Of a stretch of 56,925 nt of DNA, positions 4,027-56,925 are shown one piece after another; within the stretch, counting starts at the first letter, position 1, and each line of letters starts with the position of its first letter. Both the position numbers and the translations under genes were made by a program. The notes below the pieces were generated by a model that searched no databases, was not told the DNA's origin, and was given only the letters and a program-made list of their open reading frames with translations. The stretch is from a virus, in IMG/VR virus record IMGVR_UViG_3300013137_000023, positions 1 to 56,925 of that record; one strand, written 5' to 3'.

Positions 4027-4043
4027 GTTGAAGGGAGACCGTC

Positions 4044-4262: not shown

Positions 4263-4311
4263 ACATAACAACCGGCTCGACTTGACGAGCAAGTCAGCCG
4301 GGACGTTATGC
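4263..4311 (+). other. attC-like site 3
   Basis: The cores are ACATAAC (4263-4269) and GTTATGC (4305-4311), flanking an almost perfect hairpin. CCGGCT, one unpaired C, and GACTTG on the left pair with CAAGTC and AGCCGG on the right around a 5-base loop. It is 49 bp, shorter than most attC sites, and its structure is the cleanest of the set. Confidence 0.85.
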
Positions 4312-4663: not shown

Positions 4664-4726
4664 GCATAACCACCGGCTCGACCTCGACCGCCAAAAGACG
4701 GCGGCAGGTCAGCCGGAGCGTTATGC
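4664..4726 (+). other. attC-like site 2
   Basis: The cores GCATAAC (4664-4670) and GTTATGC (4720-4726) are perfect complements. Arms CCGGCT, GACCT and CCGCC pair with GGCGG, AGGTC and AGCCGG, leaving an extra C on the left. It lies 14 bases after the stop of the methyltransferase gene. Confidence 0.85.
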
Positions 4727-36837: not shown

Positions 36838-37485
36838 CTAAGCGCTGTCCCACTTAACTACACGGTTATCGGGATCACCCTGCCAGATCAGCTCAAACCC
36901 CAAAATGGCAATCCAGCCGATCCGTTTGTCACGGCCCATGTCGTTGATCTCAAACCGCAATTCCTCCGGTAAGGCAACGGCCTCCATGACCGCATCTTTG
37001 CCAAAGAAATAGGCTTCACCGGTGATGTTGGAAGTCCCAATGGCGTTGTCCATGCTGTTGGTGTCACGGACAAAACGAACATTGTAGTACTTACCGACCT
37101 CTCCATTTACTGGATATTTGGTGTACTGCCAAATCGACTCCAGGCTGTCATGGATACCCCGGAAAGCGGTTACGGTACAGATGGCCATATAATCGTCCCC
37201 GCCCTCCATCGGGGGAACAAGCATAGTACCCATCATGTAATCCACAACCGATTTCACACCGGCGGCATTCATATTGACAGAAGCCGTCAGGGTAGCGGTT
37301 CCATTTGTGGTAAAGTTACCAGAGGTGGTGGTAGAGGCCACATAGCGAACTTTAGCCGCATCCATCTGCGCCTCGACCCTCTTGTCAATAACCTTGACCT
37401 GATCGTTTTTAAGAGCCTCTACCTGAATGTTTTTGATATTCAGGGTAGCAAGGTTCTCGATCTTGCCCGTGTAACTCGTACTATT
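36838..37485 (-). CDS. Major capsid protein, exon 2
   Basis: Codes for residues 92-306 of the capsid protein, starting NSTSYTGKIENLATLNI just after the intron. Joined to exon 1 it gives TMEELG-NSTSYT, a natural continuation in N4-gp56-like capsid proteins, which have an EYGN-type turn followed by helices here. An ATG at 37488 is only the last intron bases plus first exon codons and should not be taken as a start: an in-frame TAA lies directly before it. Confidence 0.8.
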   Translation of the reverse strand, partial: NSTSYTGKIENLATLNIKNIQVEALKNDQVKVIDKRVEAQMDAAKVRYVASTTTSGNFTTNGTATLTASVNMNAAGVKSVVDYMMGTMLVPPMEGGDDYMAICTVTAFRGIHDSLESIWQYTKYPVNGEVGKYYNVRFVRDTNSMDNAIGTSNITGEAYFFGKDAVMEAVALPEELRFEINDMGRDKRIGWIAILGFELIWQGDPDNRVVKWDSA

Positions 37486-37758
37486 CATTTACGTTAATGG
37501 CTAACTGTTTATGAAAGCCCTATCGGTTTCCCGATAGATCAGACCATATCTTCCGTTTCCGGTCGTGCGCTCGTGGAGCTTTACTGTCCGTTCTGGACTC
37601 CATGCTCTGGTCGTTGAACCTTCAGCCCATTCCTGGGCAGCTTGGTTGCTGATTGTCCAATCCTTGGAATTTTTATAACCATCACGCCCATCGTTACCAA
37701 TCACGTTGTGGTTTTCAAGGCTCTTAGGATTTCCCAGCAATTCACACGATATTTTTTC

Positions 37759-37787
37759 TTGACTTCCTTCTATGTTTCCGGTATAAT
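37759..37787 (+). promoter_or_regulatory. Sigma-70 promoter of the intron-encoded endonuclease
   Basis: TTGACT (37759-37764), a 17-base spacer and TATAAT (37782-37787) on +, followed by AAGGAG (37805-37810) and the ATG at 37816. The promoter overlaps the intron region just 5' of the P element, so the same bases serve RNA folding on one strand and transcription on the other. Confidence 0.85.
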
Positions 37788-37815
37788 ATACTCCATAATT
37801 AAACAAGGAGTAACC

Positions 37816-38496
37816 ATGAAGACAAGTAAAGATTATAGAGAAACCAAAGAAGCAATTTGTAAGTGTGGATGTGGACAAACCTTCTACCCTGTAAGGTTTT
37901 GGGGTAAGGCTAAATTTCCTGAATATATCAGGGGCCATCATCCGAATTGTCGCAAAAAGCAATTTGGACTTATCCCGGCATGGAATAAGGGAATGAAAAA
38001 AAGAGATCATCCTTCTCTTGAACGAATGGGATTTCAGGTCGGCCACAAATCTTTCTTTAATTGGGGGAATGTCCATGAGATAATGGATAAAAACCCATCT
38101 ATTAGAGAAAAATGGCTTAATGCCCAAAAAGGTAAAAAGCCGTGGAACAAAGGGCTTACAAAAGACCTTTATAAAAACGGGATTAAGTCTGGCCCGGAGC
38201 ATGGTAACTGGAAAGGCAATAAGCGTGGCATATACGACCTTGCTATCCTTAAGGAGTTTACAAAGCATATCCTTAAGAGGGATAATTATACCTGCCAACA
38301 GTGCGGAGATCATAATTATCTTGGCCGTGGTTCCCGTATAAAACTTAATGTCCATCACATTATTGCTATTAAAGAAGATGTTACCCAAGCTCTGAATCCC
38401 CAAAACGCCACAACCTTATGCTATGACTGTCATGTTAAAACCGAAAACTATGGAACAAAACTTATCCATAAAAGAAGAAAACAAGCGGGCAATTAG
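37816..38496 (+). CDS. HNH homing endonuclease, antisense inside the group I intron
   Basis: A 226-residue protein. N-terminal zinc-like CKCGCGQTF; central WNKG repeats (PAWNKGMKK, PWNKGLTK) of the NUMOD3 DNA-binding type; C-terminal HNH domain: KRDNYTCQQCG, LNVHHIIAI and LCYDCH. The enzyme should cut intron-less capsid genes so that the intron is copied in. The gene has its own promoter and ribosome binding site and opposes the capsid gene. Its stop codon (38494-38496) lies three bases from the intron boundary, so its last codons overlap P1. Confidence 0.9.
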   Translation: MKTSKDYRETKEAICKCGCGQTFYPVRFWGKAKFPEYIRGHHPNCRKKQFGLIPAWNKGMKKRDHPSLERMGFQVGHKSFFNWGNVHEIMDKNPSIREKWLNAQKGKKPWNKGLTKDLYKNGIKSGPEHGNWKGNKRGIYDLAILKEFTKHILKRDNYTCQQCGDHNYLGRGSRIKLNVHHIIAIKEDVTQALNPQNATTLCYDCHVKTENYGTKLIHKRRKQAGN

Positions 38497-38499
38497 TTT

Positions 38500-38772
38500 A
38501 CCCAATTCTTCCATGGTCAGAGTACCCTTGTAAATCAAGAGTTGGGTCACGGGCATGGTGTTGGTTTCAGTTAAAACACCGCCCTCGGTAGCAAGGTTGG
38601 AAATCTTATCGAAATTCAGATTTTCCCCTTTGCCCTTACCAAAGGCTTCCTTGACGGTGGTGAACTGACGGAATTTTGCCAGGGGCTGCGCTTGCATCCG
38701 CCATTTCGTGCTTAAATAGTCATTGGACAAATAGCTTCCAAGACTATTAGTCACCCATACGTTTCCAGCCAT
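38500..38772 (-). CDS. Major capsid protein, exon 1
   Basis: Codes for residues 1-91, ending LTMEELG at the splice site. Features: basic and Gln-rich start, then the segment FGKGKGENLNFDKISNLATE followed by LTETNTMPVTQLLIYKGTLT, the layout of N4-gp56-type major capsid proteins. Spliced length is 306 residues, normal for the family. Reading on past 38500 gives intron-derived residues and a stop at 38416. The ATG at 38772 lies downstream of the scaffold gene with its own AGGAGG nearby. Confidence 0.85.
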
Positions 38773-44886: not shown

Positions 44887-45018
44887 TTACCGCTTCTTCC
44901 CCCGTCTCGACTTCTCCAAGGCAATAGCCACGGCCTGTTTCTGAGGCTTCCCACTCTCCACCAGCTCCTTAATGTTCTGGCTTACAACCTTCTTCCCCTT
45001 ACCTTCCTTTAATGGCAT
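44887..45018 (-). CDS. Small basic phage protein (DUF6496-like)
   Basis: A 43-residue ORF starting at the ATG at 45018, behind GGAAAGGTAGG. Sequence GKGKKVVSQNIKELVESGKP ... AIALEKSRRGKKR fits a family of short basic proteins common in phages near head genes. It may bind DNA. Preceded by a nine-codon leader-like frame. Confidence 0.65.
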   Translation of the reverse strand: MPLKEGKGKKVVSQNIKELVESGKPQKQAVAIALEKSRRGKKR

Positions 45019-45178
45019 ACCCACCTACCTTTCCTTCTTCTTACCCTTGCTCATAGCCCACCCCACCCCCAACATGACCTTAATTTAATTTTTATATGGG
45101 GCTATTAAAGTTAAGCACCTGTTGTCAAGCACATCCCCATAGCCCCATTCCGAAACCCATCAATCGGGTCATTCGGCT

Positions 45179-45367
45179 CTAAATCCAATTCTCCGAGACA
45201 TACAGGCAGACCATCTTCCACCCAGGCTTCGTCTTCCCGCAATTCTCACACATCCACTTATATTCCCCGTGCATCTTCTTGTCAACCCACACCTGTTCAA
45301 AGTTCCTGATATGCTCCCCGTATTTCCTATCCTCTTTGTTATTCATACAGCTACACGGCTTTAACAT
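45179..45367 (-). CDS. Small zinc-ribbon-like protein
   Basis: A 62-residue protein with CSCM near the start and CENCGKTKPGW near residue 40. The ATG at 45367 lies 8 bases after GAGGGAG and overlaps the end of the RepL-like gene by 17 bases, suggesting coupling. Function unknown. Confidence 0.6.
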   Translation of the reverse strand: MLKPCSCMNNKEDRKYGEHIRNFEQVWVDKKMHGEYKWMCENCGKTKPGWKMVCLYVSENWI

Positions 45368-45875
45368 TATCTCCCTCTCTCAGGTTCCCCCACTTAACCC
45401 CCTGGCAGACCCGGATCCGGTAATTCCTGAACATGGTCTGTAAAACTCTGTTTATCCGGTTCCCCTTACAAAAAAGCCACGGGTTCATAAAATATTGCCT
45501 CTCCCTGCCGTTCCTCCCCCGATAAAGTATGTCTTTGGTAATTAAACAGTTTATCGTCTCAAATACCGTGCTTCTCGACAAGCAGGACAACCGCACCATG
45601 TCGTCAAATGTCAGCATATTCCCGTTCTCATGCTTCAAACAACAATCCTCATAACCAACAAACGGGCTAACCGTAAAAAGAAGCGCCTTTTCGTTCGGGG
45701 TCAAGTCCCCCATCCACTTAACAATCTCCCGCAGGTTCCCTTTATAAAAATGCTCAACCCTCCACACATGAACCCGGTCAAGATAACATATAGATGCCTT
45801 CCTCACTATCCGGTCCCCTTCTCCTATCTCCCCAACTACCTGACCAGTAGCCTCATCCAGTACTATTCTTGCCAT
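45351..45875 (-). CDS. RepL-like winged-helix replication or control protein
   Basis: A 174-residue protein. The layout GDRIVRKASICYLDRVHVWR ... LTPNEKALLFTVSPFVGYED ... LTFDDMVRLSCLSRSTVFET (winged helix) ... RQYFMNPWLFCKGNRINRVL follows the RepL family of plasmid replication initiators, members of which occur in phages. It could bind the paired palindromes just upstream (45891-45937). Either it starts replication or it regulates late genes. Confidence 0.7.
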   Translation of the reverse strand: MARIVLDEATGQVVGEIGEGDRIVRKASICYLDRVHVWRVEHFYKGNLREIVKWMGDLTPNEKALLFTVSPFVGYEDCCLKHENGNMLTFDDMVRLSCLSRSTVFETINCLITKDILYRGRNGRERQYFMNPWLFCKGNRINRVLQTMFRNYRIRVCQGVKWGNLREGDNVKAV

Positions 45876-46211
45876 TCCTTACCCCCGTAGGTTCGCCAGG
45901 CGAACTAAAACCCCCCCCGTAGGTTCGCCAGGCGAACTTTGGAATATTGACCTAAACCAATAATATCATTATGAGAACATGCCATTTTTCGGGTCGGTGC
46001 CCCTCTTAACTCTTAAATCAACCATTATAACCTATTTTCAGGTTCACGGGGTTTGTTCTTTTATCACCCCAAGTTTTCTGAGTTAGGGTATAAAAAAACC
46101 CAGGACCAAGGGCCAATGGGAACCCAACCCGATCCCCGTTTTTGACCCCCCCCTTGCCCTGAAAATCCTCCCAAACTGGCGAAGTCTGGAAGTTTACATA
46201 ATAAGTTTTTA
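45876..46211. other. Intergenic control region with two palindromic operators
   Basis: GTTCGCCAGGCGAAC occurs at 45891-45905 and 45923-45937, each a 15-bp palindrome within a 25-bp direct repeat (45882-45906 and 45914-45938) spaced 32 bp, about three helical turns. The repeats lie immediately upstream of the RepL-like gene, so they are probably its operators or its origin-like iterons. A weak minus-strand TATAAT lies at 46029-46024. No other gene was seen. Confidence 0.65.
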
Positions 46212-46877
46212 TCAGACACCGGAATAATCCTCAATAATATCAACCCCTTGCAGATCGCCCGGGGAAATGCCGGAATTATCTGTTCTGGGTTGGGATTTGA
46301 TGGGTGAACCATTACCCGAATCCCTATTATCTGGGGTATCTAATCCCACAACCTCAGCCCGGCGTCGACCCCTGATCGTATCAGCTAATGCTTTTTGTGC
46401 CATCGAGTCTTGTGCTATTACTGTAATTCGACCCGTTAAACCCACATTTGAGGTAGATTGGTTGGTTTCAAGCCTGTATTTATCGTACAAGATCCCTAAT
46501 GCAACTACCCTTTGATAGGGATTTAGACTTTTTATTTCATCCTCTGTTATCGAAAATATTAGTTTTTTGGCCAGATTATCAAAAACCCACGCCCTGTTAT
46601 CTGCGTACCCTTCGGTCTCAATAATATCATCCTCGGCATACTTTAACCGGTGGAAAACGTTGATAGACGAGCAGCCTGCGAGTTTAGCGATTTGGCGATA
46701 CGATAAGCCTTTGTTGCGATAGCCGACGAGGGTCTCCAGGGGGATATTTTTGTGGGAGTATAGCTCGGTATTGGTTAGGGTATTATCCATATTATCCACA
46801 ATCAATGCACAATTGTGGGGGAAAGTCAAGGGGAAGTTGATTTTTGACGTTTGATAATACTGTAATATATCAAACAC
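46212..46877 (-). CDS. HTH protein, candidate small terminase or late regulator
   Basis: A 221-residue frame from a GTG at 46877; an ATG at 46790 (192 residues) is equally possible, and neither has a clear ribosome binding site. The helix-turn-helix LVGYRNKGLSYRQIAKLAGCSSINVFHRLKYAEDD is clear. The rest is helical (AWVFDNLAKKLIFSITEDEI) with a low-complexity C-terminus. Position at the head of the structural operon fits a small terminase, which also binds DNA by an HTH; a regulator is the alternative. Confidence 0.55.
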   Translation of the reverse strand: MFDILQYYQTSKINFPLTFPHNCALIVDNMDNTLTNTELYSHKNIPLETLVGYRNKGLSYRQIAKLAGCSSINVFHRLKYAEDDIIETEGYADNRAWVFDNLAKKLIFSITEDEIKSLNPYQRVVALGILYDKYRLETNQSTSNVGLTGRITVIAQDSMAQKALADTIRGRRRAEVVGLDTPDNRDSGNGSPIKSQPRTDNSGISPGDLQGVDIIEDYSGV

Positions 46878-47213
46878 ACTATTCCAGGATTTAGAAGGGT
46901 GTTACAGGATTTAGAATGATTAAATATAATAATATTAAGCGGTTGCCAATTTTTTGTATTTCACAAGGGTGCAATAAATTGTAAAATGTGTCAAGTGCCA
47001 AGATTTTTTACACATGGTAAAAAAAGCTGGCAGGTGATTGTAAAGAAAGCTGGCACTTGACAAGTACAAGACCAGACCAGAAACGCACCGTATTTACAAA
47101 TACCTAAGATAATTAAGAAAAAAAAATAATAAATAATTGGCTGTATTGGCACGGGAAATGCTTATTAATATGGTAAAAAAACACAACGGGCAGGCGCCCG
47201 GAAAGGAGGAAGT
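46878..47213. promoter_or_regulatory. Divergent control region
   Basis: 336 bases without genes between the leftward and rightward operons. Contents: a 12-bp direct repeat CAGGATTTAGAA (46885-46896, 46905-46916); a perfect 12-bp inverted repeat TGTCAAGTGCCA / TGGCACTTGACA (46989-47000 / 47051-47062); a direct repeat AGCTGGCA; a weak minus-strand promoter (TTGGCA 46949-46944, TATTTA about 46926-46921); and AT-rich runs after 47090. It is probably both a promoter and operator region and possibly an origin. Confidence 0.55.
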
Positions 47214-47537
47214 ATGAGTATTAGAAATTGTACCCCACACCCGGTTATGATCCGGGTTGGGGTGAAGGACATGACCCTGGAGCCCTTGGGGATTATCCCG
47301 AGGGTTGCGACAATCGAAACCCCCTCTGAAGAAATTGAGGGAATCCCCGCCGTCTCCCAGAAGATGGGTGATATTGAGGGACTCCCCAACCCTGAAGAGG
47401 GGGTCTTTTTTTTGGTCAGCGCCATGGTATTCGGGGCATCTGACCGACAGGATTTACTGGCCCCGGACACCGGGAAAACCTGCATCCGGGATGACCAAGG
47501 ACGGATTCAGGCGGTAACCCGTCTTATCAGGAAATAA
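47214..47537 (+). CDS. Conserved small protein, first gene of the rightward operon
   Basis: A 107-residue protein behind GAAAGGAGGAAGT. NCTPHPVMI ... LGIIPRVATIE ... GLPNPEEGVFFLVSAMVF follows a pattern I have seen in short phage and actinobacterial proteins of unknown function. The PNPEEG turn and Val-Ser strand suggest a compact beta-rich fold. Role unknown. Confidence 0.7.
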   Translation: MSIRNCTPHPVMIRVGVKDMTLEPLGIIPRVATIETPSEEIEGIPAVSQKMGDIEGLPNPEEGVFFLVSAMVFGASDRQDLLAPDTGKTCIRDDQGRIQAVTRLIRK

Positions 47538-47594
47538 TTTCAAAGCAGACCTGAAGCTGACCTATCGGCGTGACGGGGAGAAAGAAGGAGAAAT

Positions 47595-47816
47595 ATGTGT
47601 TGGATAATTGACAAAAAAATGAACTTCCCTGGAATTACCGGGGAGGTTACGATTAATATCCACCGTGGGGGGACATATAACCTGTGGTGGAATGAGGGCA
47701 CAACTGTTTTTTCCGGGTATATTAACCCGGATGGAGTGTTAGAGAAATCTTGGGAGGGTGAATTAGACTCACCTTCCCAAGAAATCTTTACACAGGACTA
47801 TCCCAGGCTCATGTAG
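47595..47816 (+). CDS. Hypothetical 73-residue protein
   Basis: A beta-rich protein with Gly and Trp (MCWIIDKKMNFPGITGEVTI ... YNLWWNEGTTVFSGY), behind AGAAGGAGAAAT. No family was recognised. Confidence 0.6.
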   Translation: MCWIIDKKMNFPGITGEVTINIHRGGTYNLWWNEGTTVFSGYINPDGVLEKSWEGELDSPSQEIFTQDYPRLM

Positions 47817-47837
47817 CAGCCGGGAAAAGGAGGAAAA

Positions 47838-48182
47838 ATGAGTCAAGAAGGGATCGCAAGAAAAATTTCCGACTTCCTGGAAGCCGACCCGGAAGGGTAT
47901 CGGCTGTTTACCCATGCTGGGGCAGGATATTGTTATCTGTTCCGGCATGAGGACGTAGGATCGGGGGCAGCTTTTGAAGTGTCCCCCTTGGAAGCCCTCG
48001 ATGAGGGCTGGTTGACGGTCAATGAAGAGGGGACTGGCGTCCGCCTTCCTGGCGGGGACATGGTCCCCCTTCAGATCGATTGGGTTAAAGTTAGAAGGAG
48101 AGTGGAAGACACCCTCCGAAAATTAGAGGACCGCAAAAAATTATACAAGGTGGCTCGTGAGCTAAATGTAAAACTCACATAG
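47838..48182 (+). CDS. Hypothetical 114-residue protein
   Basis: Behind AAAAGGAGGAAAA. First part globular (HAGAGYCYLFRHEDVGSG), second part helical (WVKVRRRVEDTLRKLEDRKK). The following terminator (48223-48257) would end or weaken transcription after it. Function unknown. Confidence 0.6.
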   Translation: MSQEGIARKISDFLEADPEGYRLFTHAGAGYCYLFRHEDVGSGAAFEVSPLEALDEGWLTVNEEGTGVRLPGGDMVPLQIDWVKVRRRVEDTLRKLEDRKKLYKVARELNVKLT

Positions 48183-48192
48183 GCCACCGAAC

Positions 48193-48257
48193 GGCCCCGG
48201 AGAAATCCGGGGCAAATCAAAGGCCGATTATCCCATAAAGGGGTAGTCGGCTTTTTT
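48193..48257 (+). terminator. Tandem hairpins, terminator in the rightward operon
   Basis: A GCCCCGG/CCGGGGC hairpin (48194-48213) is followed by a second stem, GCCGATTATCCC with GGGGTAGTCGGC (48223-48251), and TTTTTT. It is a clear terminator inside the operon, so genes from 48300 onwards need readthrough or another promoter. Confidence 0.8.
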
Positions 48258-48299
48258 GTTTTAATTGGCCAACGGGCATGAGCCCGGAAAGGAGGGAGC

Positions 48300-48875
48300 A
48301 TGAAAACGGAATCTATGCAAGAAAATCTTGAAAAACTTTTTTTTGCCGGGAAAATCAAGGCGGGGATTGTCTATGATCTTATGCCAAGCGATTGTAGGGG
48401 TGATGGATATGATATTGCTCTCATATCCAGGTATGATGAGAGCGGAGAATATGAGATTGCCGGACACACGCTGGCCGTAAAATGCGAGGTTAAAGTCGGG
48501 TCACCAAAGTGGAGTGAAGGCACCCCGGCCCTATACTCTCTAATTATGGATAGGGTAGTTAATCTCCCTAAAAAAATAGACAACCCAAGGACCAAAACCG
48601 ACAAGAGGGTTAATTGGCTCATTGATAACTATGATGCAATTTATAGCCTGCCCAGGGCAAACCATAGCAGATGCCGGGGCAATTGTAATAATGGCGCAAC
48701 GTGTCGAGACCAGTCTATAGGAGGTTGGGGGTATTGGGTATGGGCGCTTAGGAGAGCCAACATTGACCACCAATCCAAAAATTATTGGTCCGGGTCTAAC
48801 CCAACCCCGAGTACAAGTATTAGGCGGGTAATTGCGAAGTATATCCTTGACAATTGTCCTGCGGAGCTACGTTAA
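48300..48875 (+). CDS. Hypothetical 191-residue protein with Cys cluster
   Basis: The largest protein of the rightward operon, behind GGAAAGGAGGGAGC. The first half looks globular and acidic (LMPSDCRGDGYDIALISRYD). A central cysteine group (CRGNCNNGATC, about residues 123-133) could bind metal. Trp/Asn-rich stretch at 150-175. No family was recognised. Confidence 0.65.
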   Translation: MKTESMQENLEKLFFAGKIKAGIVYDLMPSDCRGDGYDIALISRYDESGEYEIAGHTLAVKCEVKVGSPKWSEGTPALYSLIMDRVVNLPKKIDNPRTKTDKRVNWLIDNYDAIYSLPRANHSRCRGNCNNGATCRDQSIGGWGYWVWALRRANIDHQSKNYWSGSNPTPSTSIRRVIAKYILDNCPAELR

Positions 48876-48929
48876 ACCAAATCCCCAGGCAGGAGGGATT
48901 AAATAAACCAGAAAGAAAGGAGAAAAGCT

Positions 48930-49175
48930 ATGACTAAGGAAAATTGGATTAAACATATTGAAGAGTCCGAACATTGTAATATCAAAGAAATTACAAAAAA
49001 TGAATGGCTTGGATATTTGCTTGTACATCGGGAAGAAAGGCCCGAATGCCCGGAATGTAAAGCCCGAAAAAAAAGCAGGGAAGCAAATCTCAGGGCAAAA
49101 AATCACCGGGCTGCTTACCGTGATCTGGGAATGAAACGGGTAAGGGGAAGCTTGGGCGGAGTATACTACGAATAA
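48930..49175 (+). CDS. Small zinc-type protein with conserved C-terminal motif
   Basis: An 81-residue protein behind AGAAAGGAGAAAAGCT. CPECKARKK gives a CxxC; the end (LGMKRVRGSLGGVYYE) resembles a motif repeated in many short phage proteins, where GxxxVRGxLGGxYW-like ends recur. Function unknown. Confidence 0.65.
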   Translation: MTKENWIKHIEESEHCNIKEITKNEWLGYLLVHREERPECPECKARKKSREANLRAKNHRAAYRDLGMKRVRGSLGGVYYE

Positions 49176-49219
49176 CCAACAAATCCTGCTGACCTATCGG
49201 AAAGAAAGGAAAACAGAAA

Positions 49220-49546
49220 ATGAAAGAATTTATTGAGCGTGATTGTGTTTTTGAAGTTGATGGAAAGAAGTTTGAAAGCAGAGGGGCTTATTTTATAACC
49301 GGGAAAAACGGTAAGTCTCTTGCCTTGTTGTTCGGGGATTGGAATGCACCGGATTATTGTCATAATGGATTCGCTGGAAATTGGCACAGCGACATAAGGT
49401 TCCCGGTACGCTATGGAAAAGTTTTTATTGGTAATATGGGAGATAAAAGGCGATGGGTTTCTTTAACCATAGACGGGAAAAACTTTAGGGGACTGTGGGC
49501 AGGCATTGGTTATAATCAGACGATAAATTTCAAACAAACCAAATAG
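49220..49546 (+). CDS. Hypothetical 108-residue protein
   Basis: A beta-rich protein (FEVDGKKFESRGAYFITGKN ... DRRWVSLTIDG-like end), behind GAAAGGAAAACAGAAA. Two similar DGK-F-motifs (DGKKFES and DGKNFRG) near both ends suggest an internal duplication. No family was recognised. Confidence 0.6.
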   Translation: MKEFIERDCVFEVDGKKFESRGAYFITGKNGKSLALLFGDWNAPDYCHNGFAGNWHSDIRFPVRYGKVFIGNMGDKRRWVSLTIDGKNFRGLWAGIGYNQTINFKQTK

Positions 49547-49559
49547 AAAGGAGAAGACT

Positions 49560-50060
49560 ATGATTCAATTCAAATTCGGAAGTTTAAAAAGAGAGGGAAC
49601 AGGATACCTTTTTGATTCAAGTTACTATTCCATAAGGGGCTCGGAGGTATTTTATCATGATCCCCCAAAGTATGTGGATTCCCATTTCTATGAATATCTA
49701 ACCTACACAGATGGACTTACCCAACACTCTCCAGAACACCCAGTAGTAAGAGAAAACTTTGAGGATTTACTAAATAGTCTGGCTCTTCACCTTCATAAAA
49801 ATCCAGAAGATTTAAAGACCTTTTGTGACAGTATAGTATGGCCCCTCCCCCTCGACCCAAAAGAGGTAAACTTCCTGGCCGCCCTGAAGTATATAGAAGA
49901 AAAACCCACTTACTATAACCGATCGGAACTGAAGATTTCCAGATCACCTTCAAAGCAATTCGATAAACGATGGGAATTGATAGAGCCTTGGGTAAATGGA
50001 AATACTCCAGATATCGTTCGGTTGCTGTACAGAAGTTTTATGGGTTTCTCCAAAGATTAG
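49560..50060 (+). CDS. Hypothetical protein, probably continuing to 50245 after a frameshift
   Basis: A 166-residue frame behind AGAAAGGAGAAGACT. It stops at 50060, but a second frame running 49970-50245 continues without a ribosome binding site from about residue 163, ending AYEHKRCSKIYIESILRKGE at a typical spacing before the next gene. One inserted or deleted base near 50050 would join them into about 228 residues. It is a helical-rich protein with no recognised family. Confidence 0.5.
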   Translation: MIQFKFGSLKREGTGYLFDSSYYSIRGSEVFYHDPPKYVDSHFYEYLTYTDGLTQHSPEHPVVRENFEDLLNSLALHLHKNPEDLKTFCDSIVWPLPLDPKEVNFLAALKYIEEKPTYYNRSELKISRSPSKQFDKRWELIEPWVNGNTPDIVRLLYRSFMGFSKD

Positions 50061-50290
50061 CAATATGTATTCAGGTTAAAAATATTTTAGGTTGGGGCTG
50101 GATTGACTATGAAAAAGAGTTTGGATTTAAAATTAACTACCAAAATCTGCAAGGATACCATGCTATTGAGGAAATGAATTTGGCTTATGAACATAAAAGG
50201 TGTTCAAAAATTTATATTGAAAGCATTTTAAGGAAAGGAGAATAACTATAACAAGTTTTAATGCCTAAAATAGAAAGGAGAAAAACGACC

Positions 50291-50725
50291 ATGAAGGAGG
50301 AAATATGGAATAAAAGAGGAACAAGGATTATAAATTTTGAATCTGCTCACAAAACGTTTAATAAATATATTGTCTCCGTTTTTAGGGGGCAATGTATTGG
50401 AGGGGGTCAATTTTCCCTTTGCATCCGGCCATATTCGGAAAAAGAATGTAACGGCCATAAATTCCCAGAAGGCCACTTAAGGCGTTTTGATCTTAAAAAC
50501 TTTAGCCACTACCTGAATAACCGGCTTATAAATTTCCTTGACGAAAATAAAGAAGTTAGGGTTGTTTTATATGAATTTTACCATTATTCAAAAGGCAAAA
50601 GGGTTTTGCATGGACACATCGTCCAAAATGCAAATGACCTTTCTGATATTAAAATTTTTCCGTATCCGTTCACGACCTACAAAAGTGAATCGGTTTTAAG
50701 GGAAGCGGCCAATTTCTTAAACTAA
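50291..50725 (+). CDS. Hypothetical 144-residue protein
   Basis: Start set at the ATG at 50291 behind AGAAAGGAGAAAAACGACC; an upstream in-frame ATG at 50261 has none. Segments FESAHKTFNKYIVSVFRGQC and FSHYLNNRLINFLDENKEV give a mixed alpha/beta impression. No family was recognised. Confidence 0.6.
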   Translation: MKEEIWNKRGTRIINFESAHKTFNKYIVSVFRGQCIGGGQFSLCIRPYSEKECNGHKFPEGHLRRFDLKNFSHYLNNRLINFLDENKEVRVVLYEFYHYSKGKRVLHGHIVQNANDLSDIKIFPYPFTTYKSESVLREAANFLN

Positions 50726-50745
50726 TAGAAAGGAGAAAAAAAACC

Positions 50746-50919
50746 ATGCCAAAAACGAAGCATGTTTTCACCCTCTATTTAGAGGGTGAGGGACAGGACA
50801 AAGGGGAAGCCTGGGCCTTGGCTTGGCAACAAGCCACGAAAATTTACTCTAAGGATGAATGCCCCCGGAATATCAACTATATCCTTATCCCTGGGGATGA
50901 GGAAGAAGGGAGTAAATAA
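50746..50919 (+). CDS. Hypothetical 57-residue protein
   Basis: Behind AGAAAGGAGAAAAAAAACC. FTLYLEGEGQDKGEAWALAW then NYILIPGDEEEGSK: an acidic-ended, compact protein. No family was recognised, but the strong ribosome binding site supports expression. Confidence 0.6.
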   Translation: MPKTKHVFTLYLEGEGQDKGEAWALAWQQATKIYSKDECPRNINYILIPGDEEEGSK

Positions 50920-50921
50920 AT

Positions 50922-51116
50922 ATGGAATATACAGATAGAGAAAAAGAGGAAATAGGAATAAGGCTTGCGAATCTATTTCACATTCCACAAAGCAAAAGAG
51001 AAAAAGGACGTTACTTGACATCATGGGGAACCAAAACCCCAATAGGTGTTTTTGAGGTAATGATTAGAATTTCGCAAGAAATTGAAACCGGAAACATTAT
51101 AAAATTGTTGGGATAG
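50922..51116 (+). CDS. Hypothetical 64-residue protein
   Basis: Starts 2 bases after the previous stop, using GGAAGAAGGGAG at the end of that gene as ribosome binding site. Charged helical N-terminus (TDREKEEIGIRLANLFHIP). Function unknown. Confidence 0.55.
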   Translation: MEYTDREKEEIGIRLANLFHIPQSKREKGRYLTSWGTKTPIGVFEVMIRISQEIETGNIIKLLG

Positions 51117-51133
51117 AAAGGAGTAAATCAACT

Positions 51134-51433
51134 ATGAAAATAAAATTCGTTTGTCATGCCGTTAAGTGGTTTGATAAGGTTAATGGAAACACCTATCATT
51201 CCGTAAGAATTACAAATACCAAAACCGGAGAAACTATTGCCAATGGTTTTCAGTATGGATACGGCGATCACTATCGGCAAACGGCCTTAATGAGAATGCT
51301 TAAAGCCGATTGGATTCCGGGATATAATGAAAAAACTATTTACTCGTATGAGCGGGAGAACAATTATCCCATTCAATGGATTGTTTCGCATGGCTTAAAA
51401 CGTGATTGTATCGCAAACGGAAAGGAAAATTAA
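51134..51433 (+). CDS. Hypothetical 99-residue protein
   Basis: Behind AGAAAGGAGTAAATCAACT. NGNTYHSVRITNTKTGETIA is strand-rich; a helical centre follows. No family was recognised. The unit is typical of small early phage proteins. Confidence 0.6.
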   Translation: MKIKFVCHAVKWFDKVNGNTYHSVRITNTKTGETIANGFQYGYGDHYRQTALMRMLKADWIPGYNEKTIYSYERENNYPIQWIVSHGLKRDCIANGKEN

Positions 51434-51434
51434 T

Positions 51435-51521
51435 ATGTATAAATCACTAATAATTCAGCTTATCGGCTGGGGTTTTATAATCTGTTTGCAGTTAATGTTT
51501 TTGGTCGAATTAGGGAGGTAG
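51435..51521 (+). CDS. Single-helix membrane peptide
   Basis: A 28-residue ORF behind GGAAAGGAAAATTA. Nearly all hydrophobic: YKSLIIQLIGWGFIICLQLM followed by FLVELGR. It is the last gene before the terminator at 51556-51580. Might act on the membrane, as small phage toxins or exclusion peptides do; this is inference. Confidence 0.5.
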   Translation: MYKSLIIQLIGWGFIICLQLMFLVELGR

Positions 51522-51555
51522 TGGGCGACTAAAAACCTAAATTAACCAACCAAAA

Positions 51556-51580
51556 GGCCCCGGTCCTCCGGGGCTTTTTT
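51556..51580. terminator. Bidirectional terminator between convergent operons
   Basis: GGCCCCGG-TCCT-CCGGGGC followed by TTTTTT on +; on the minus strand the same stem is preceded by As, with TTTT downstream. It ends both the rightward operon and the leftward one. Confidence 0.85.
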
Positions 51581-51596
51581 ATTCCCCTTATTCCAC

Positions 51597-51884
51597 CTAT
51601 ACCTCTTCCCCGGTATAATCCGGGCATTCCGTTATACCCAGACCTCGGATGTTTTGGTTGACTTGACCATTTTGCCGGTAAAGATAGGGCTGTTTTGGGA
51701 ACCTTCCGGCCTTGCACCAGACAAGCCTGATAGTCTGGACCTGACCATCTTTAAAGGCACTTCGGATATAACCGTTTGTTTCGGCAAAGGTTTCCTGCCA
51801 CTTCTCTTCTTTTAACTCTTCCACGGTGAACCGTTTACACCGCAGATTAAAGCATCGAAAACATAATGGCCTTTCTTTCTTCAT
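51597..51884 (-). CDS. Hypothetical Cys-containing protein
   Basis: A 95-residue protein, last gene of the leftward replication operon. CFRC, C and C near the start, basic N-terminus, no recognised fold. ATG at 51884 overlapping a purine-rich stretch. Confidence 0.55.
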   Translation of the reverse strand: MKKERPLCFRCFNLRCKRFTVEELKEEKWQETFAETNGYIRSAFKDGQVQTIRLVWCKAGRFPKQPYLYRQNGQVNQNIRGLGITECPDYTGEEV

Positions 51885-52000
51885 ATCCCTTGCCCTCCAT
51901 GGGTGGCTTGAGGTTTGTTTAAAATAGCTCTCTGTGGCCTTTTAAATCAACGATCTTGTTTTACAGGTATGTTTGTACCTTTTTTTTATTTGAAACCGTT

Positions 52001-52348
52001 TCAGGATTTCTTGTTCATTCCCTGTTTGCGGAGAGCATTAGAATTATCCCTTGCCTTGCTCAGTTTTTCCTTGTGATCTTCCGACAGCACTCTGCTTACC
52101 CTTTTTCGGCTGGAATAAGGGTTGAAGGGGTAAAGAGGACAAAACGGGTTAGAACAATCCGTTTTCCCCTCCATGCCATAACCGACACACTCGTAACAGT
52201 GGGCGGCTATGGCTTCCCTTTGTGTCAAATCCTCTCCCTGGCAATATTTTAGTAACTCATTCATTCCCCTGCGGGCTAACCCATCTCTCTGAATATCCGC
52301 CTGAATATCCTGAAACCGTTTCAATAATCCTTCTTCAGTCCATGTCAT
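52001..52348 (-). CDS. Hypothetical Cys-rich phage protein
   Basis: A 115-residue protein. CYECVGYGMEGKTDCSNPFC followed by PLYPFNPY is a pattern I have met in many phage-encoded short proteins with a predicted zinc site. It overlaps the upstream gene by 14 bases. Function unknown. Confidence 0.65.
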   Translation of the reverse strand: MTWTEEGLLKRFQDIQADIQRDGLARRGMNELLKYCQGEDLTQREAIAAHCYECVGYGMEGKTDCSNPFCPLYPFNPYSSRKRVSRVLSEDHKEKLSKARDNSNALRKQGMNKKS

Positions 52349-52544
52349 ATCCGTTGCTCTCTATAATATTTATTTTATAAAGTTTTCTAATGGTTTTACA
52401 CACTTGGCAGTTACACTTTTCTTGTTTCCCGAATCCCGAAAGAAAGTTTTTGGCGGTGGCGTGTTCCCGGATTACCTCAAGGCAAACAAAGCGCATCTTC
52501 TCTTCCCGACAATCACAGGCGTTATGATGTGTTGTGCATTTCAT
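52335..52544 (-). CDS. Hypothetical small Cys/His protein
   Basis: A 69-residue protein with CTTHHNACDC and CNCQVC pairs, so it may bind one or two zinc ions. Short overlap with the gene downstream. No family was recognised. Confidence 0.55.
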   Translation of the reverse strand: MKCTTHHNACDCREEKMRFVCLEVIREHATAKNFLSGFGKQEKCNCQVCKTIRKLYKINIIESNGYDMD

Positions 52545-52556
52545 TGTTTTTCCTTC

Positions 52557-52877
52557 CTAAAATGGAATGTCGGATTCGGTCTCTTCTTGAACCGGTGTCG
52601 AATTGGAACCGTTGCCCTGGCCAGTTAGCTCATTCAACATGGCTTCCAGAACCTTGACCGCCGTTTCCCGTTCCCCCAAGTAAACCTTAGCCGGGGTGTC
52701 CTTGTCGTTCTGAACCTTCTGTTTGGTCGCCTTGTCCCACCTGTAAGCCCTAACCCAATCCAGACCGATCTTCCCGTCCTGACCCTCGTATCCAGAAACA
52801 ATTGAATAGGTTTCCTTATACTGATCCAACTTAACCCCTGCCTTAACACCCGTTTTATGAAACTTAAAATCTTGCAT
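52557..52877 (-). CDS. SSB-like ssDNA-binding protein
   Basis: A 106-residue protein ending in TEEESDIPF-like acidic tail (ESDIPF), the C-terminal tip used by SSB proteins to recruit partners; the body has strand-forming segments (GLDWVRAYRWD). Directly downstream of the primase-helicase. It is shorter than bacterial SSB and the OB-fold is not certain. Confidence 0.55.
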   Translation of the reverse strand: MQDFKFHKTGVKAGVKLDQYKETYSIVSGYEGQDGKIGLDWVRAYRWDKATKQKVQNDKDTPAKVYLGERETAVKVLEAMLNELTGQGNGSNSTPVQEETESDIPF

Positions 52878-52879
52878 GA

Positions 52880-54490
52880 TTAGCCCTCCTCTCCTGGCTG
52901 TCTAATTAGTGTTTTTTTCTTTTCTCCGTCATAATACCATGTTGTTGTTGGTAAAAACTTAGAACCATTAACTATTTTAAATTCCTTTATCTTACCGTTT
53001 GGATTTTCCCAACCCTTAACCCACGCCTTGCACTTCACTATTTTAATCCTTCCATAATCCATTGCCAGTGCAAGCCTTGGTTTTTCAAGCGTAAATTCAC
53101 CACCACGTCCAACATCACTGTCTGTTTTTTTCTGGATACCTATTAAACATATAGAATTTTTTAACTTTGAATGAATTGCAGATATATACTTACCGACTTC
53201 ATAAAAGTTTTCCAATACCTCAAGATAATCAATTATAAATATTGGATACTTTTCTGGGTCAATAAGGTCTTGATAGTTTTCATTTAATTCAACTGCGTCA
53301 AATTTCCAATCATTAATTTTCATATCTTCAAACAATTCAAGACGGGCATTCAATTCATCCTCGCCCATCTCTGAATTAATATAAAGAATTTTATTTTTTT
53401 CTTGGTTTTGTCTAATAAAATCAAGCATGAAGGTTGTTTTCCCGGAGTTCTTTGCACCGGCAAGCAAGATGATGTTTCCGGGGTACAGCCTAACAAAATG
53501 GTCAAGGTCTAATGGGAAATTAACATGAACCGTTTTGCCTGTAGCCTGTCTATAATTCATTAATTCAAAATCTTTCTTGATTCTACGGTAAGTTCCGTGT
53601 CTTGTTGGGTGCTTTTCAAGATATCCTTCCTTTACAAGCCTGTGCATGGCTTGATAGAGGGCGTTTCGGTGTGGTGTAAGTTTTGTAAGGGTTTGTAAGA
53701 TGTCTGTAAGGGAAATGTAAGACTCTGTAAGACTCAAAAACTCCTTAACCTCGGCAATTATATTAACCTCCCTTCTTTCGTCCCGGTTAAGTGCGCTATT
53801 TATTTTGTCGGAAATCCACTTATCATCATTTTCCCCCCACGAATTTATCAATCTTTTCAATACTTCACATATATATTCTTTTTCACAACCACCCTTAACT
53901 AAACAATTTGAAATATGGAAAAGGTCAATATCTCTCCTTCCATTAGAAAATAAGGGCTGTAAGTTTTGTAAGTTTTGTAAGAACTCCCCTTTATTATATA
54001 TAGTATTAGTATTTAAAATCCATATGGGTATAGTATTTAATACTATGTCTTTTATAATCTTATATTGTGATCCGTTAGGATGAATGCTTGGGGGAGCAAC
54101 CACATAGCCTCCATCTGAACGAATGTCAATTCCGGGAAGGTCATTTCTTGCTTGCCAGTTCCTTAGTCCGGGTTCATACTTGTAATAGCAATGCCAACCG
54201 GCTTGCTTCCCGGTCTTTATTAGTCTTGTTTCTGGCAACCCTTTACTCTTGGCAAGTTTTAGGGCTTCCGGGCCGTCTATGTCAAGCACCGACAAACCAG
54301 ATATTTGCCCGGTAACAATTCCGATATTGTTCTCCCCATGCTCAAACCATTTTTTGGCTTCGTCTTCTGTGGCCCTGTTGGTCTGGTATCCCTGCCATTT
54401 AATCACCGGCACTTTATCCTTTGGTTTTAATGGAATTACAGAATACCCCATATCTAAATATACTAACGCCGCATCAAGCATTGTTTTCAT
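52880..54490 (-). CDS. PrimPol-helicase fusion (bifunctional primase/polymerase with RecA-like helicase)
   Basis: A 536-residue protein. N-terminal Prim-Pol domain: DID (70-72), GKQAGWHCYYKY around His100 and IRSDGGYVVAPPSIHPNGSQ (123-142). A small central domain (about 270-310), then a RecA-like domain with Walker A GAKNSGKTT (about 341-349) and IFIIDYLEV as Walker B. Such fusions prime and unwind phage DNA. It is the central replication protein of the genome. Confidence 0.8.
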   Translation of the reverse strand: MKTMLDAALVYLDMGYSVIPLKPKDKVPVIKWQGYQTNRATEDEAKKWFEHGENNIGIVTGQISGLSVLDIDGPEALKLAKSKGLPETRLIKTGKQAGWHCYYKYEPGLRNWQARNDLPGIDIRSDGGYVVAPPSIHPNGSQYKIIKDIVLNTIPIWILNTNTIYNKGEFLQNLQNLQPLFSNGRRDIDLFHISNCLVKGGCEKEYICEVLKRLINSWGENDDKWISDKINSALNRDERREVNIIAEVKEFLSLTESYISLTDILQTLTKLTPHRNALYQAMHRLVKEGYLEKHPTRHGTYRRIKKDFELMNYRQATGKTVHVNFPLDLDHFVRLYPGNIILLAGAKNSGKTTFMLDFIRQNQEKNKILYINSEMGEDELNARLELFEDMKINDWKFDAVELNENYQDLIDPEKYPIFIIDYLEVLENFYEVGKYISAIHSKLKNSICLIGIQKKTDSDVGRGGEFTLEKPRLALAMDYGRIKIVKCKAWVKGWENPNGKIKEFKIVNGSKFLPTTTWYYDGEKKKTLIRQPGEEG

Positions 54491-54492
54491 AC

Positions 54493-54609
54493 CTATATTC
54501 CCAATAATTCTAATATTTTAAGTATTTCAATTTCATACTGTTTTGGGTCAAGATTTGCTTTTTTTAGTTTTACTTTCTCTTCTTCATATTTTTCAAACCC
54601 CCAATTCAT
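54493..54609 (-). CDS. Tiny ORF upstream of the PrimPol gene
   Basis: A 38-residue frame at ATG 54609, behind AGATTAA-rich leader. MNWGFEKYEEEKVKLKKANL then YEIEILKILELLGI. It joins in-frame, across one inserted A near 54640, to the end of the nuclease-like gene upstream and may be its C-terminus rather than a separate gene. It ends 3 bases before the PrimPol start. Confidence 0.45.
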   Translation of the reverse strand: MNWGFEKYEEEKVKLKKANLDPKQYEIEILKILELLGI

Positions 54610-54628
54610 ATTTAATCTGTGTATATAC

Positions 54629-54892
54629 TTATGACTGTTTATATAACTCTACTACTTGTTTTTTGTGGCCATCTTCAAAGATGCTTGGTTTAATTTCGAT
54701 GCCGATTGGTATTCTTGGAAAATTGTTTAATATTAGATTTTCTTTGGGGAAAACAATAAAATCTATTCTCTTTCCCTTCTTGGTTATGGCGTGAATCCCT
54801 TCCACCTCTTTTCTTATAATAAAATATTCACCAAGAATATTAATTACTTTTCTTGAAATGTTTTTTTCTGGCTCCATTGGTATTATAGACAT
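54629..54892 (-). CDS. Restriction-endonuclease-fold nuclease-like protein, possibly truncated
   Basis: An 87-residue protein. IDFIVFPKENLILN ... IGIEIKPSIFED has the Asp ... Glu-x-Lys spacing of PD-(D/E)XK nucleases. The first 28 residues (KNISRKVINILGEYFIIRKE) are unusual. The frame ends in KQS at 54629; one base over, it continues as NSHKYIHRLNMNWGFEKYEE to 54493. So it may be a longer gene with a frameshift. Its ribosome binding site is buried in the leader structure described below. Confidence 0.45.
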   Translation of the reverse strand: MSIIPMEPEKNISRKVINILGEYFIIRKEVEGIHAITKKGKRIDFIVFPKENLILNNFPRIPIGIEIKPSIFEDGHKKQVVELYKQS

Positions 54893-55050
54893 AAAAAAAC
54901 CTCCTGGTTTTTTGAGTTGCTTAGTTCAAGAAGATCAGGAATTACCGGATCGGCTTAAACCTCAAAAACCAGGAGGCCCTATGGAATAGGCTATGTTTGT
55001 GAACAAAAAAAACCGAACCATGTAATATCCTTGTCTTTCTCGAACTAAGC
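54893..55050 (-). promoter_or_regulatory. Leader RNA with interleaved stems covering the ribosome binding site
   Basis: 158-nt leader of the nuclease-like gene on the minus strand. Stem A pairs TGCTTAGTTCGAGAA (55051-55037) with TTCTTGAACTAAGCA (54932-54918). Stem B pairs CCTCCTGGTTTTTGAG (54976-54961) with CTCAAAAAACCAGGAGG (54916-54900). B' contains the AGGAGG of the gene and is followed by TTTTTTT and the ATG at 54892. The order A-B-A'-B' means the stems interleave: a pseudoknot, or two folds that exclude one another. This is the pattern of an attenuator or riboswitch. Confidence 0.6.
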
Positions 55051-55056
55051 ATTTCC

Positions 55057-55085
55057 ACTATACCAAACCCAACCAGTCAAGTCAA
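55057..55085 (-). promoter_or_regulatory. Sigma-70 promoter before the leader
   Basis: On the minus strand TTGACT (55085-55080), 17 bases, TATAGT (55062-55057). Transcription should start near 55050, where stem A begins. It provides a separate start for the PrimPol/SSB part of the operon. Confidence 0.65.
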
Positions 55086-55088
55086 TAG

Positions 55089-55733
55089 TTACTCAAACAA
55101 TCTCCCCTGTTGCTGGTGGCGCTCAAGCCGTTCCTTTGCGGCCTTAAAGTAGTCGGGGTCAAGTTCATAGGCCCATAAGTCAAACCCCATGTCATGACAG
55201 GCAATCCCGATTGACAGGCTCCCGAAATGGGTGTCAAGTATCTTATCCCCCGTCTTTGCGTAGTTCTTTAGAAGCCATTTATATAGGGCTACTGGTTTCT
55301 GGGTGGGGTGAGTCTTTTCATCACAATGGTTTATGTAAGCATCTGCTCTTGAATATGTAAATATCTTCATTGGTTTATTAAAAGAAGTCCATGCCATTTC
55401 CCCGTCACTTCTGTTATCACGTTGTTTTTTATCCCACACGATCCAGCATTTTGTTGGCTTGTTATTATAATAATTAGCTCCCCATATTATTTGATTGGTT
55501 GAAACCCTAAATAGATCATTGAAATATTCATCGTCTGGTATTTTATGGTCCCATGTGGTTGTTTTATATTTTTTCCATATTCCTCCATTTTGTTTTCTTT
55601 TAGTACCAGCACAGGAGTTTTGTATTGTATCGTAATTTATACCATACGGCGGGTCAACAATGGCAAGATCAAAGAACTTATCAGGAAACTCTTTCATCCC
55701 TTCCATACAATCTTGATTAAATAGCTTAATCAA
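55089..55733 (-). CDS. DNA N6-adenine/N4-cytosine methyltransferase
   Basis: A 214-residue protein. DPPYG (27-31) is the catalytic motif; KTHPTQKP and LDTHFGS (motif I) follow in the beta-class order. The start is a TTG at 55733 behind AGGAGG. No restriction partner lies beside it, so it is an orphan methyltransferase, perhaps protecting phage DNA from host enzymes. A second (C5-like) methyltransferase is in the cassette array. Confidence 0.8.
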   Translation of the reverse strand: MIKLFNQDCMEGMKEFPDKFFDLAIVDPPYGINYDTIQNSCAGTKRKQNGGIWKKYKTTTWDHKIPDDEYFNDLFRVSTNQIIWGANYYNNKPTKCWIVWDKKQRDNRSDGEMAWTSFNKPMKIFTYSRADAYINHCDEKTHPTQKPVALYKWLLKNYAKTGDKILDTHFGSLSIGIACHDMGFDLWAYELDPDYFKAAKERLERHQQQGRLFE

Positions 55734-55941
55734 TCTCCGTCCTCCTTGTAAACATCCGCCTTAAAACGTACGAGCGAATGATTGAAATAACAGTAAACCA
55801 TACACCGATCAGAAAATTGTCCCGAATAGGTACATGAAGCCCAAAGTAGGGAAATATTACAATCTGGCTCCCCACTGCGACTAAGTATCCGGCAGCTACA
55901 TTCGTCAGGCTTTCGATAAGGCTAAACTTTTTAGACTGCAT
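55726..55941 (-). CDS. Conserved small phage membrane protein
   Basis: A 71-residue protein with two membrane helices (LTNVAAGYLVAVGSQIVIFP and NFLIGVWFTVISIIRSYVL). The pattern, including FPYFGLHVP and the RSYxLRR end, matches a common phage family of unknown function (known to me as DUF7220-like). It overlaps RusA in TAATG form. Confidence 0.65.
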   Translation of the reverse strand: MQSKKFSLIESLTNVAAGYLVAVGSQIVIFPYFGLHVPIRDNFLIGVWFTVISIIRSYVLRRMFTRRTEID

Positions 55942-56333
55942 TACAGCCTCAAAAAAACATTAGTTCTGGGGCATTCATCATATTTTTTTTCGGCAGATAT
56001 TTTCCAGACCTGGGAATCGTCATGCCATACCGTGCCATTACAGACATCTTTTAAAAACTTGATTAGATTATCAAGATCTGGCTTTTTGACATGGTCCCGG
56101 TCCCGTTGCTTTTTTGGCATGGATTCGGGGATAGGCATATAAAACGTAACGTCCATCATGACACCGACCCCTTTCTCAATAGGCGGGTCCTTCCACTGCT
56201 GCTTAATTTCCCATAACACCCGGCCCTCCTCGGTTTCCTGGTCGTTATAGGTCGTGACAAACTTTCCCCGGCGAGCGAACCTGGGGCGCTTCTTGGCTAT
56301 CGGATTGCCGGGAATTGTTATGGTCTTTTCCAT
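55941..56333 (-). CDS. rusA: RusA-like Holliday junction resolvase
   Basis: About 130 residues; start at the ATG at 56333 behind AGGAGGAGTG. GNPIAKKRPRFARRG at the start, then PDLDNLIKFLKDVCNGTVWH: the DxD/LDN acidic block and the conserved NG of RusA. The dimer cuts four-way junctions produced by Bet-driven recombination and by replication. It is standard in phages with Red-like modules. Confidence 0.85.
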   Translation of the reverse strand: MEKTITIPGNPIAKKRPRFARRGKFVTTYNDQETEEGRVLWEIKQQWKDPPIEKGVGVMMDVTFYMPIPESMPKKQRDRDHVKKPDLDNLIKFLKDVCNGTVWHDDSQVWKISAEKKYDECPRTNVFLRL

Positions 56334-56356
56334 CACTCCTCCTTTTTGCAATTAAT

Positions 56357-56896
56357 TCAACCTTTTTCCCCAAGTGGGGAATATGGTTGTTTTTTCTCCA
56401 TTCCCCCATTAATTCTTGCCCTCCATAGTTGTTTTTTTAAAGTCCAAATCCGCATCGCCCCCAGCCGTAACAGGGCCAGTCGTTGAGCATCAGACCACTG
56501 ATAGCTATGATTAATTTTTGGATTGCGGACGCATTGCACCGTAGTATCGGACAACTCATTCCCGACCACCAATATCCCCGCATGCCCTGGGATGAGGTCG
56601 GCGCTGCATTGCAGATAGTCTGGGATGGCAAAATACAGCCTGGATATTTTCCCATCTTTCCTGGGGTTGTCCGGGTCATAACTTCTATGGCCGTGACGCT
56701 TTTGGAGATCCTTTTTAAGATCCGCCCTGCTGATCTTTAACTCAACCTCATAGGCATAATTATTTTTAGTCAACACCAAGAGGTCGATTTCATACAGATT
56801 CAGCCCCCACGACACATTGGGAACGGCAAGGTTCACCCGAGGATTGAAATACTGGGCGACGGCGATCTCCATTTCCAGGGTCGTTATTTTAGCCAC
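56357..56896 (-). CDS. MmcB-like DNA repair family protein
   Basis: A 179-residue protein, complete here. GLNLYEIDLLVLTKNNYAYE then VELKISRADLKKDL has the Asp ... Glu-x-Lys pattern of PD-(D/E)XK-like folds; residues 70-120 are typical of the MmcB family (HGHRSYDPDNP). MmcB acts in DNA damage response; the phage copy may repair or protect DNA. Start at a GTG at 56896, 13 bases inside the previous gene across the junction. The C-terminus is Trp- and Arg-rich. It is followed by RusA. Confidence 0.6.
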   Translation of the reverse strand: MAKITTLEMEIAVAQYFNPRVNLAVPNVSWGLNLYEIDLLVLTKNNYAYEVELKISRADLKKDLQKRHGHRSYDPDNPRKDGKISRLYFAIPDYLQCSADLIPGHAGILVVGNELSDTTVQCVRNPKINHSYQWSDAQRLALLRLGAMRIWTLKKQLWRARINGGMEKKQPYSPLGEKG

Positions 56897-56925
56897 GGCT
56901 TCTTCTTTCCCACCGCCTTACTTAA
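56601..56925. repeat. Right copy of the diverged terminal overlap
   Basis: Matches 1-325 with 12 substitutions and no indels. Of the 12 changes, nine fall on third codon positions of the MmcB-like gene and only two change an amino acid, so they look like natural variation under selection rather than sequencing error. Confidence 0.9.

Follow-up and report, generated by a model that had tools for sequence, protein, structure and literature searches.

A candidate two-state leader RNA, able in model folding to expose or hide a ribosome site, ahead of a viral primase-polymerase operon

The window analysed here, which is the whole 56,925-nt stretch of IMG/VR virus record IMGVR_UViG_3300013137_000023, carries on its minus strand a 159-nt leader (55051-54893) that can probably adopt either of two mutually exclusive folds, of which one leaves the start of the following gene open and the other closes it. 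With moderate confidence, we propose that this leader acts in cis as a two-state, attenuator-like switch of the ribosome site for an operon of an 87-aa ORF, a primase-polymerase gene and an SSB-like gene. In model folding, the leader has two stable alternative stems, one of which hides the Shine-Dalgarno sequence. If both states are real, there is an RNA-level control point ahead of a phage primase-polymerase operon.

The leader lies between a methyltransferase gene (end at 55089) and the ATG of the 87-aa ORF at 54892. The first-pass annotation had described two complementary pairs in the order A-B-A'-B', and all of their elements could be located on the minus strand. Stem A (inverted repeat I2) consists of a 5' arm at 55037-55051, which is the base of hairpin A, and a 3' arm (A') at 54918-54932; it is 15 nt long and 93% complementary, with a G-U as its single exception. 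Stem B (inverted repeat I3) consists of a 5' arm at 54961-54976, which duplex energy also marks as an anti-Shine-Dalgarno, and a 3' arm (B') at 54900-54916, and it has 13 exact pairs plus three more across a one-base bulge. As was first noticed, B' contains AGGAGG (54905-54900) and seven T residues follow at 54899-54893, between the Shine-Dalgarno sequence and the ATG, where they would serve as a U tract if B-B' were a terminator. Read in the RNA sense, the A arm is followed by 60 nt, the B arm, 28 nt, A', one base, B', the T run and the ATG at 54892. The Shine-Dalgarno sequence of the 87-aa ORF is a good one and stands seven bases ahead of its ATG.

A sigma-70 promoter had also been claimed ahead of the leader, and a consensus scan agrees in predicting an extended -10, sigma-70-like site at 55085-55057 on the minus strand, on the presumption of a bacterial host. 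This site, TTGACT-17-TATAGT, matches the consensus at 10 of 12 positions with TG preceding the second hexamer, and it is the sole one to combine both features among the 37 sites listed in 45000-56925; shuffling of the same region yields 25.9 ± 4.2 sites with at least 9 of 12 matches. The transcript start expected from the promoter spacing, near 55051, is the first base of hairpin A. The sigma-70 reading depends on the host being bacterial, which we favour in view of the strong site at 48219-48255 that resembles an intrinsic terminator. The terminase has matches in bacterial phages (about 26%), and the best matches of the primase are in archaeal viruses. In addition, a 36-codon frame from the ATG at 55052, of unremarkable length and with a poor Shine-Dalgarno sequence, spans A and B and could make the leader a leader-peptide attenuator.

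The structure of the leader exceeds chance. Its minimum free energy is -59.8 kcal/mol against -33.9 ± 4.1 kcal/mol for shuffled sequences, none of 500 shuffles being as low (z about -6). The longest exact stem in the leader has 13 pairs compared with a maximum of 10 across 1000 shuffles, and interleaved stems of at least nine pairs appeared in none of 2000 shuffles. Moreover, stem B is one of only two exact inverted repeats in the whole window with at least 12 pairs and a spacer of at most 150, and 40 simulated windows gave a mean of 0.5 and a maximum of 2 such repeats and no interleaved pair; under this exact-12 criterion the real window also contains no interleaved pair, owing to the G-U in stem A. 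When the whole window was folded in a sliding manner, 54871-55050 ranked second for over-structured minus-strand RNA.

The folding model used is nested and excludes pseudoknots. In the minimum-energy and ensemble folds, complete hairpin A (54918-55051) has 36 pairs with small interruptions, its 5' side running over 55051-55010 and its 3' side over 54956-54918 up to the top pair 55010-54956, and arm B sits in its loop. The full-length minimum is this A form at -59.8 kcal/mol, and a fold with B-B' forced reaches -52.2 kcal/mol. These energies are close enough for the leader to switch; on the other hand, with an advantage of 7.6 kcal/mol for the A form, hardly any B form would be expected without a trigger. 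In the unmasked ensemble, A has a probability of 0.92 and B-B' of 0.00, and the Shine-Dalgarno sequence is free at 0.67; in this default form the model leaves B' free except for a weak local hairpin. Transcripts starting further upstream (five lengths) left the ensemble unchanged. When 18-nt masks were moved along the leader, six of 25 flipped it to a state with B-B' at 0.81-0.98 and the Shine-Dalgarno sequence free at 0.00. All six lie on the basal arms of A, and one of them also touches the first bases of B'. Three neighbouring masks gave partial flips (B-B' 0.12-0.34), and with the remaining masks B-B' stayed at or below 0.03. Both the anatomy and the model folding support the earlier idea that stem B would hide the ribosome site.

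The relation between the two stems had been read differently: together they would make a pseudoknot, and separately they would exclude neither but compete kinetically. Nested folding makes A and B alternatives instead. Arm B is 4 nt from the upper A' arm at the hairpin top and A' is one base from B' at the hairpin base, so that B-B' pairing would join the top of hairpin A to its base; from this geometry and these distances we infer that helix B and the complete form of hairpin A exclude each other. B could join the basal 15 pairs of A in a pseudoknot only if the upper part of A were open. A rough estimate for such an H-type pseudoknot is -26.8 plus -27.2 kcal/mol before any pseudoknot penalty, to be compared with -59.8 kcal/mol for the A form.

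We suggest the following mechanism. By default, hairpin A would form and leave the Shine-Dalgarno sequence mostly open, which would be the ON state. In stepwise folding of the growing transcript, hairpin A is complete once the RNA has reached 54916, at which point B' is still to be made, and A would probably be the default winner for this reason. If the base of A were blocked, B would pair with B' and bury the Shine-Dalgarno sequence in a stem followed by U7, which would be the OFF state, acting by a block of translation and perhaps also by an end of transcription before the ATG. The switch would presumably be set by whatever occupies the base of A, for example a protein such as the SSB or the primase encoded by the operon itself, a leader-bound ribosome, or an RNA. 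If both states are real, the leader combines an anti-Shine-Dalgarno, a rival hairpin, a ribosome site and a U tract within 159 nt.

Stem B had also been called terminator-like, and this holds only in part. The stem and U7 are present, but a terminator scan that admits loops of 3-8 nt calls none at stem B, whose loop is 44-51 nt. The long loop and the A-rich/U-rich pairs in part of the stem make its strength as a terminator doubtful; transcription might end at U7, but with no certainty. Similarly, of the suggestion that the leader is a riboswitch or an attenuator, the attenuator or hidden ribosome site is favoured by the anatomy and folding, while the riboswitch is unsupported: among known families, Rfam gave no match to the leader at the gathering score, and a sub-threshold match lies on the other strand only.

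The leader may instead not switch at all. Hairpin A would then stand at the 5' terminus, guard the mRNA against decay and lock B away, and the complementarity of B would at most set a fixed basal translation. We consider this unlikely. In its favour, hairpin A begins at the predicted 5' end and strongly predominates in the ensemble (A 0.92, B-B' 0.00). Hairpins at the 5' terminus that stabilise mRNA are well known, and hairpin A would be of this kind. Yet a non-switching leader leaves unexplained why the hairpin loop contains a stretch able to form 16 pairs with the Shine-Dalgarno region and why U7 follows, and repeats of the B type are rare in the window.

A second alternative is that the terminated leader is a trans-acting small RNA, like IsrK or the P4 CI RNA, acting either on freshly made leader copies, via their free A or B arms, or on the gene at 45351-45875. 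A 17-nt segment of the leader (54935-54951, minus strand), which sits in the upper A' arm, is perfectly antisense to this gene at 45414-45430, and its duplex (-33.3 kcal/mol) is the best of 24 segments. This segment would also be unpaired in the pseudoknotted B form of the H-type model. However, the 23 control segments give -20.2 to -31.9 kcal/mol, and the length of the match can be explained by chance: inverted matches of at least 17 nt in the window, with the first 320 bases excluded, number two (the match described here and another of 26 nt at 4312/4587), against an expectation of about 0.5 per window in six simulations. The target site is deep within the coding region and not at its start, the segment is paired in the A form, and under a mask over just these 17 nt A stays at 0.82 and B-B' at 0.09, so that in the nested model a partner bound to the segment would not by itself switch the leader to the B form. 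Rfam moreover gives no match to known phage antisense RNAs. We regard a trans-acting role as rather improbable. The 174-aa product of the gene at 45351-45875 had no family match, only a weak NCBIfam match below the cut-off, and no phage relative was found for it.

A more elaborate version is an early-to-late RNA toggle, in which the OFF form would free the 17-nt guide against this structural-half gene, whose mRNA would in turn help to open hairpin A and so shut the replication operon. Two phage operons would then repress each other via one leader RNA without a protein, but we give this the slightest likelihood of all the readings considered here. As a separate observation, a 25-nt direct repeat with its copies 32 nt apart (45882 and 45914) contains a palindrome and lies just before the gene start at 45875. 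Ahead of that repeat region is a stretch of strong structure (46021-46200). The repeat (45882-45946) and the structured stretch, both upstream of the 174-aa gene, are candidates for an operator or a leader.

The genes downstream bear on a third alternative. The 87-aa ORF (54629-54892, minus strand), the first gene after the leader, is an orphan with no credible family. It had been called nuclease-like, a label resting on a D...ExK pattern spotted by eye, and this was not upheld: sequence searches of Pfam, NCBIfam, PADLOC and PDB were empty or not credible and gave no endonuclease family. One weak PHROGs family was found for it (E 0.062, function not assigned), and its single-sequence AlphaFold model was uninformative (mean pLDDT 45). 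The PrimPol label, on the other hand, is secure; the gene at 52880-54490 (minus strand) matches PF09250 (E 2.2e-31), and its product is a primase-polymerase that also has an ATPase domain. The nearest listed homologues of this protein, at about 34%, come from viruses assigned to methanogens. The SSB label of the next gene (52557-52877, minus strand) is weak, for it rests on families of function unknown and on 31.6% identity to sequence that immediately follows the primase in virus vir555.

The operon's products include a primase-polymerase and an SSB-like protein, and one of these might bind the leader, as a pseudoknot or as a hairpin, and repress translation, by analogy with T4, where gp32 binds the leader pseudoknot of gene 32 (PMC3014915). 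The SSB assignment is weak, however, and the SSB-like gene is about 2 kb downstream of the leader. Such autoregulation, which is a special case of the two-state leader, seems to us improbable as the particular form that the switch takes.

We think it very improbable that the repeats work at the DNA level, by forming a single-stranded DNA hairpin that is a primase start site or an origin. A long imperfect hairpin beside the primase gene is indeed predicted on both strands, but folding is stronger on the leader strand (z -5.2 vs -4.4), the promoter, Shine-Dalgarno sequence, T7 and ATG are in register on one strand, and there is no GC-skew turning point at the leader. An RNA thermometer was rejected, the predicted fold being identical from 15 to 55 °C. 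A type III toxin-antitoxin system, as it is usually defined, was rejected as well, for there are no tandem repeats and the small ORF is an orphan, and a retron was set aside, a reverse transcriptase having not been noticed.

We searched for relatives of the leader and of the 87-aa ORF in phages, plasmids, IMG/VR and GTDB genomes, in collections that may omit records very near the window, and found none. With no relatives for comparison, covariation is unavailable, and our confidence in the two-state switch stays moderate. The 87-aa ORF gave no tblastn match in phages or plasmids, and pattern scans for it returned 13 stretches in IMG/VR and 518 in GTDB genomes, with no relative among either. 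For the leader region, blastn against phages gave four weak matches (E 0.5), judged to be chance, and two scans of IMG/VR with leader DNA patterns gave no match. One leader-pattern match among genome contigs, in a Chitinophagales MAG, was also dismissed as chance, as neither a T run nor an ATG follows its Shine-Dalgarno-like part. A generic pattern of an anti-Shine-Dalgarno arm and a Shine-Dalgarno arm found eight loci in IMG/VR, which were folded on both strands, and none resembles the leader by eye. Loci were also gathered through the neighbouring genes (the best 80 of 171 methyltransferase relatives, two terminase loci and the best 80 of 93 primase relatives); no relative of the leader or ORF occurred among the 164 loci compared, the window itself (L001) being excluded, and a Shine-Dalgarno sequence with an upstream 12-nt complement occurred nowhere in 2,574,368 strand-bases of the compared loci. 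The regions upstream of the genes preceding the MetMV and vir555 primases fold unlike the leader, and megablast of 35000-56925 against phages gave no match. Separately, three IMG/VR contigs (L166 at 1193-1264, L167 at 1544-1618 and L168 at 5059-5133) have divergent gene pairs whose leader Shine-Dalgarno stretches are long and complementary to each other.

Several other features of the window may be recorded. Hairpins like attC sites, judged by the usual attC consensus, occur at 4263-4311 and 4664-4726, and perhaps also near 3719 and at 3961-4031; they have ends ACATAAC/GTTATGC and GCATAAC/GTTATGC, and the 26-nt inverted repeat at 4312/4587 flanks them. They are possibly integron cassettes in a phage, and clusters of attC sites in virulent phages have already been reported (PMC9892861). 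A group I intron (37520-37817, minus strand; Rfam RF00028, 71 bits) lies between minus-strand ORFs at 38416-38772 and 36838-37488, which look like one split gene, possibly for capsid, and an HNH endonuclease-like ORF (37642-38496, plus strand; PF01844) runs across the intron on the opposite strand. The window ends (1-325 and 56601-56925) repeat each other over 325 bases with 96.3% identity and 12 differences, indicating a circular or a terminally repeated genome; the differences would come from strain variation within the assembly, or else the two copies have diverged. Finally, a 12-nt inverted repeat (46989-47000 / 47051-47062) in the intergenic region from which the two transcription directions diverge is a candidate repressor operator.

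In the open-access literature, judged mostly from listings, we found no described case of the arrangement proposed here for the two-state leader. For the control of phage replication genes by a leader RNA, the textbook examples are P4 and T4 gene 32, and neither is known to have this arrangement. Attenuators of amino-acid operons and of the riboswitch type have rival hairpins, the later of which is followed by a U tract, and the leader is like them in this respect. Unlike them, it has no aptamer and no convincing leader peptide, though the 36-codon frame exists, and its terminator-like stem overlaps the ribosome site.

Phage leaders with alternative structures and with terminated and read-through forms include the Gifsy-1 prophage RNA IsrK and the RNAs of P4, and in satellite phage P4 (seqA / CI RNA) premature termination controls the replication genes (PMC4825925). 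Our leader is like these in outline, being a phage leader with predicted alternative structures, but its U tract stands between the Shine-Dalgarno sequence and the ATG, and it has no sequence match to them in Rfam. In T4-like phages, helices hide the Shine-Dalgarno sequences of e, soc, 49 and I-TevI and of mobE of Aeh1, and such helices also precede free-standing endonuclease genes (PMC3014915). The likeness is that a helix covers the ribosome site of a phage gene. There, a late promoter inside a single hairpin bypasses it, whereas here the promoter is upstream of everything, a rival hairpin A would need to hold the hiding helix open, and the status of the 87-aa ORF as an endonuclease is only putative. 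T4 gene 32 offers another likeness, in that a replication-gene leader is able to form a pseudoknot; that of gene 32 is autoregulatory and bound by gp32 (PMC3014915). In T4 this pseudoknot is placed ahead of the ribosome site and serves to nucleate the binding of protein. In our leader, unlike that of gene 32, the second stem contains the Shine-Dalgarno sequence itself, and the SSB-like gene is distal.
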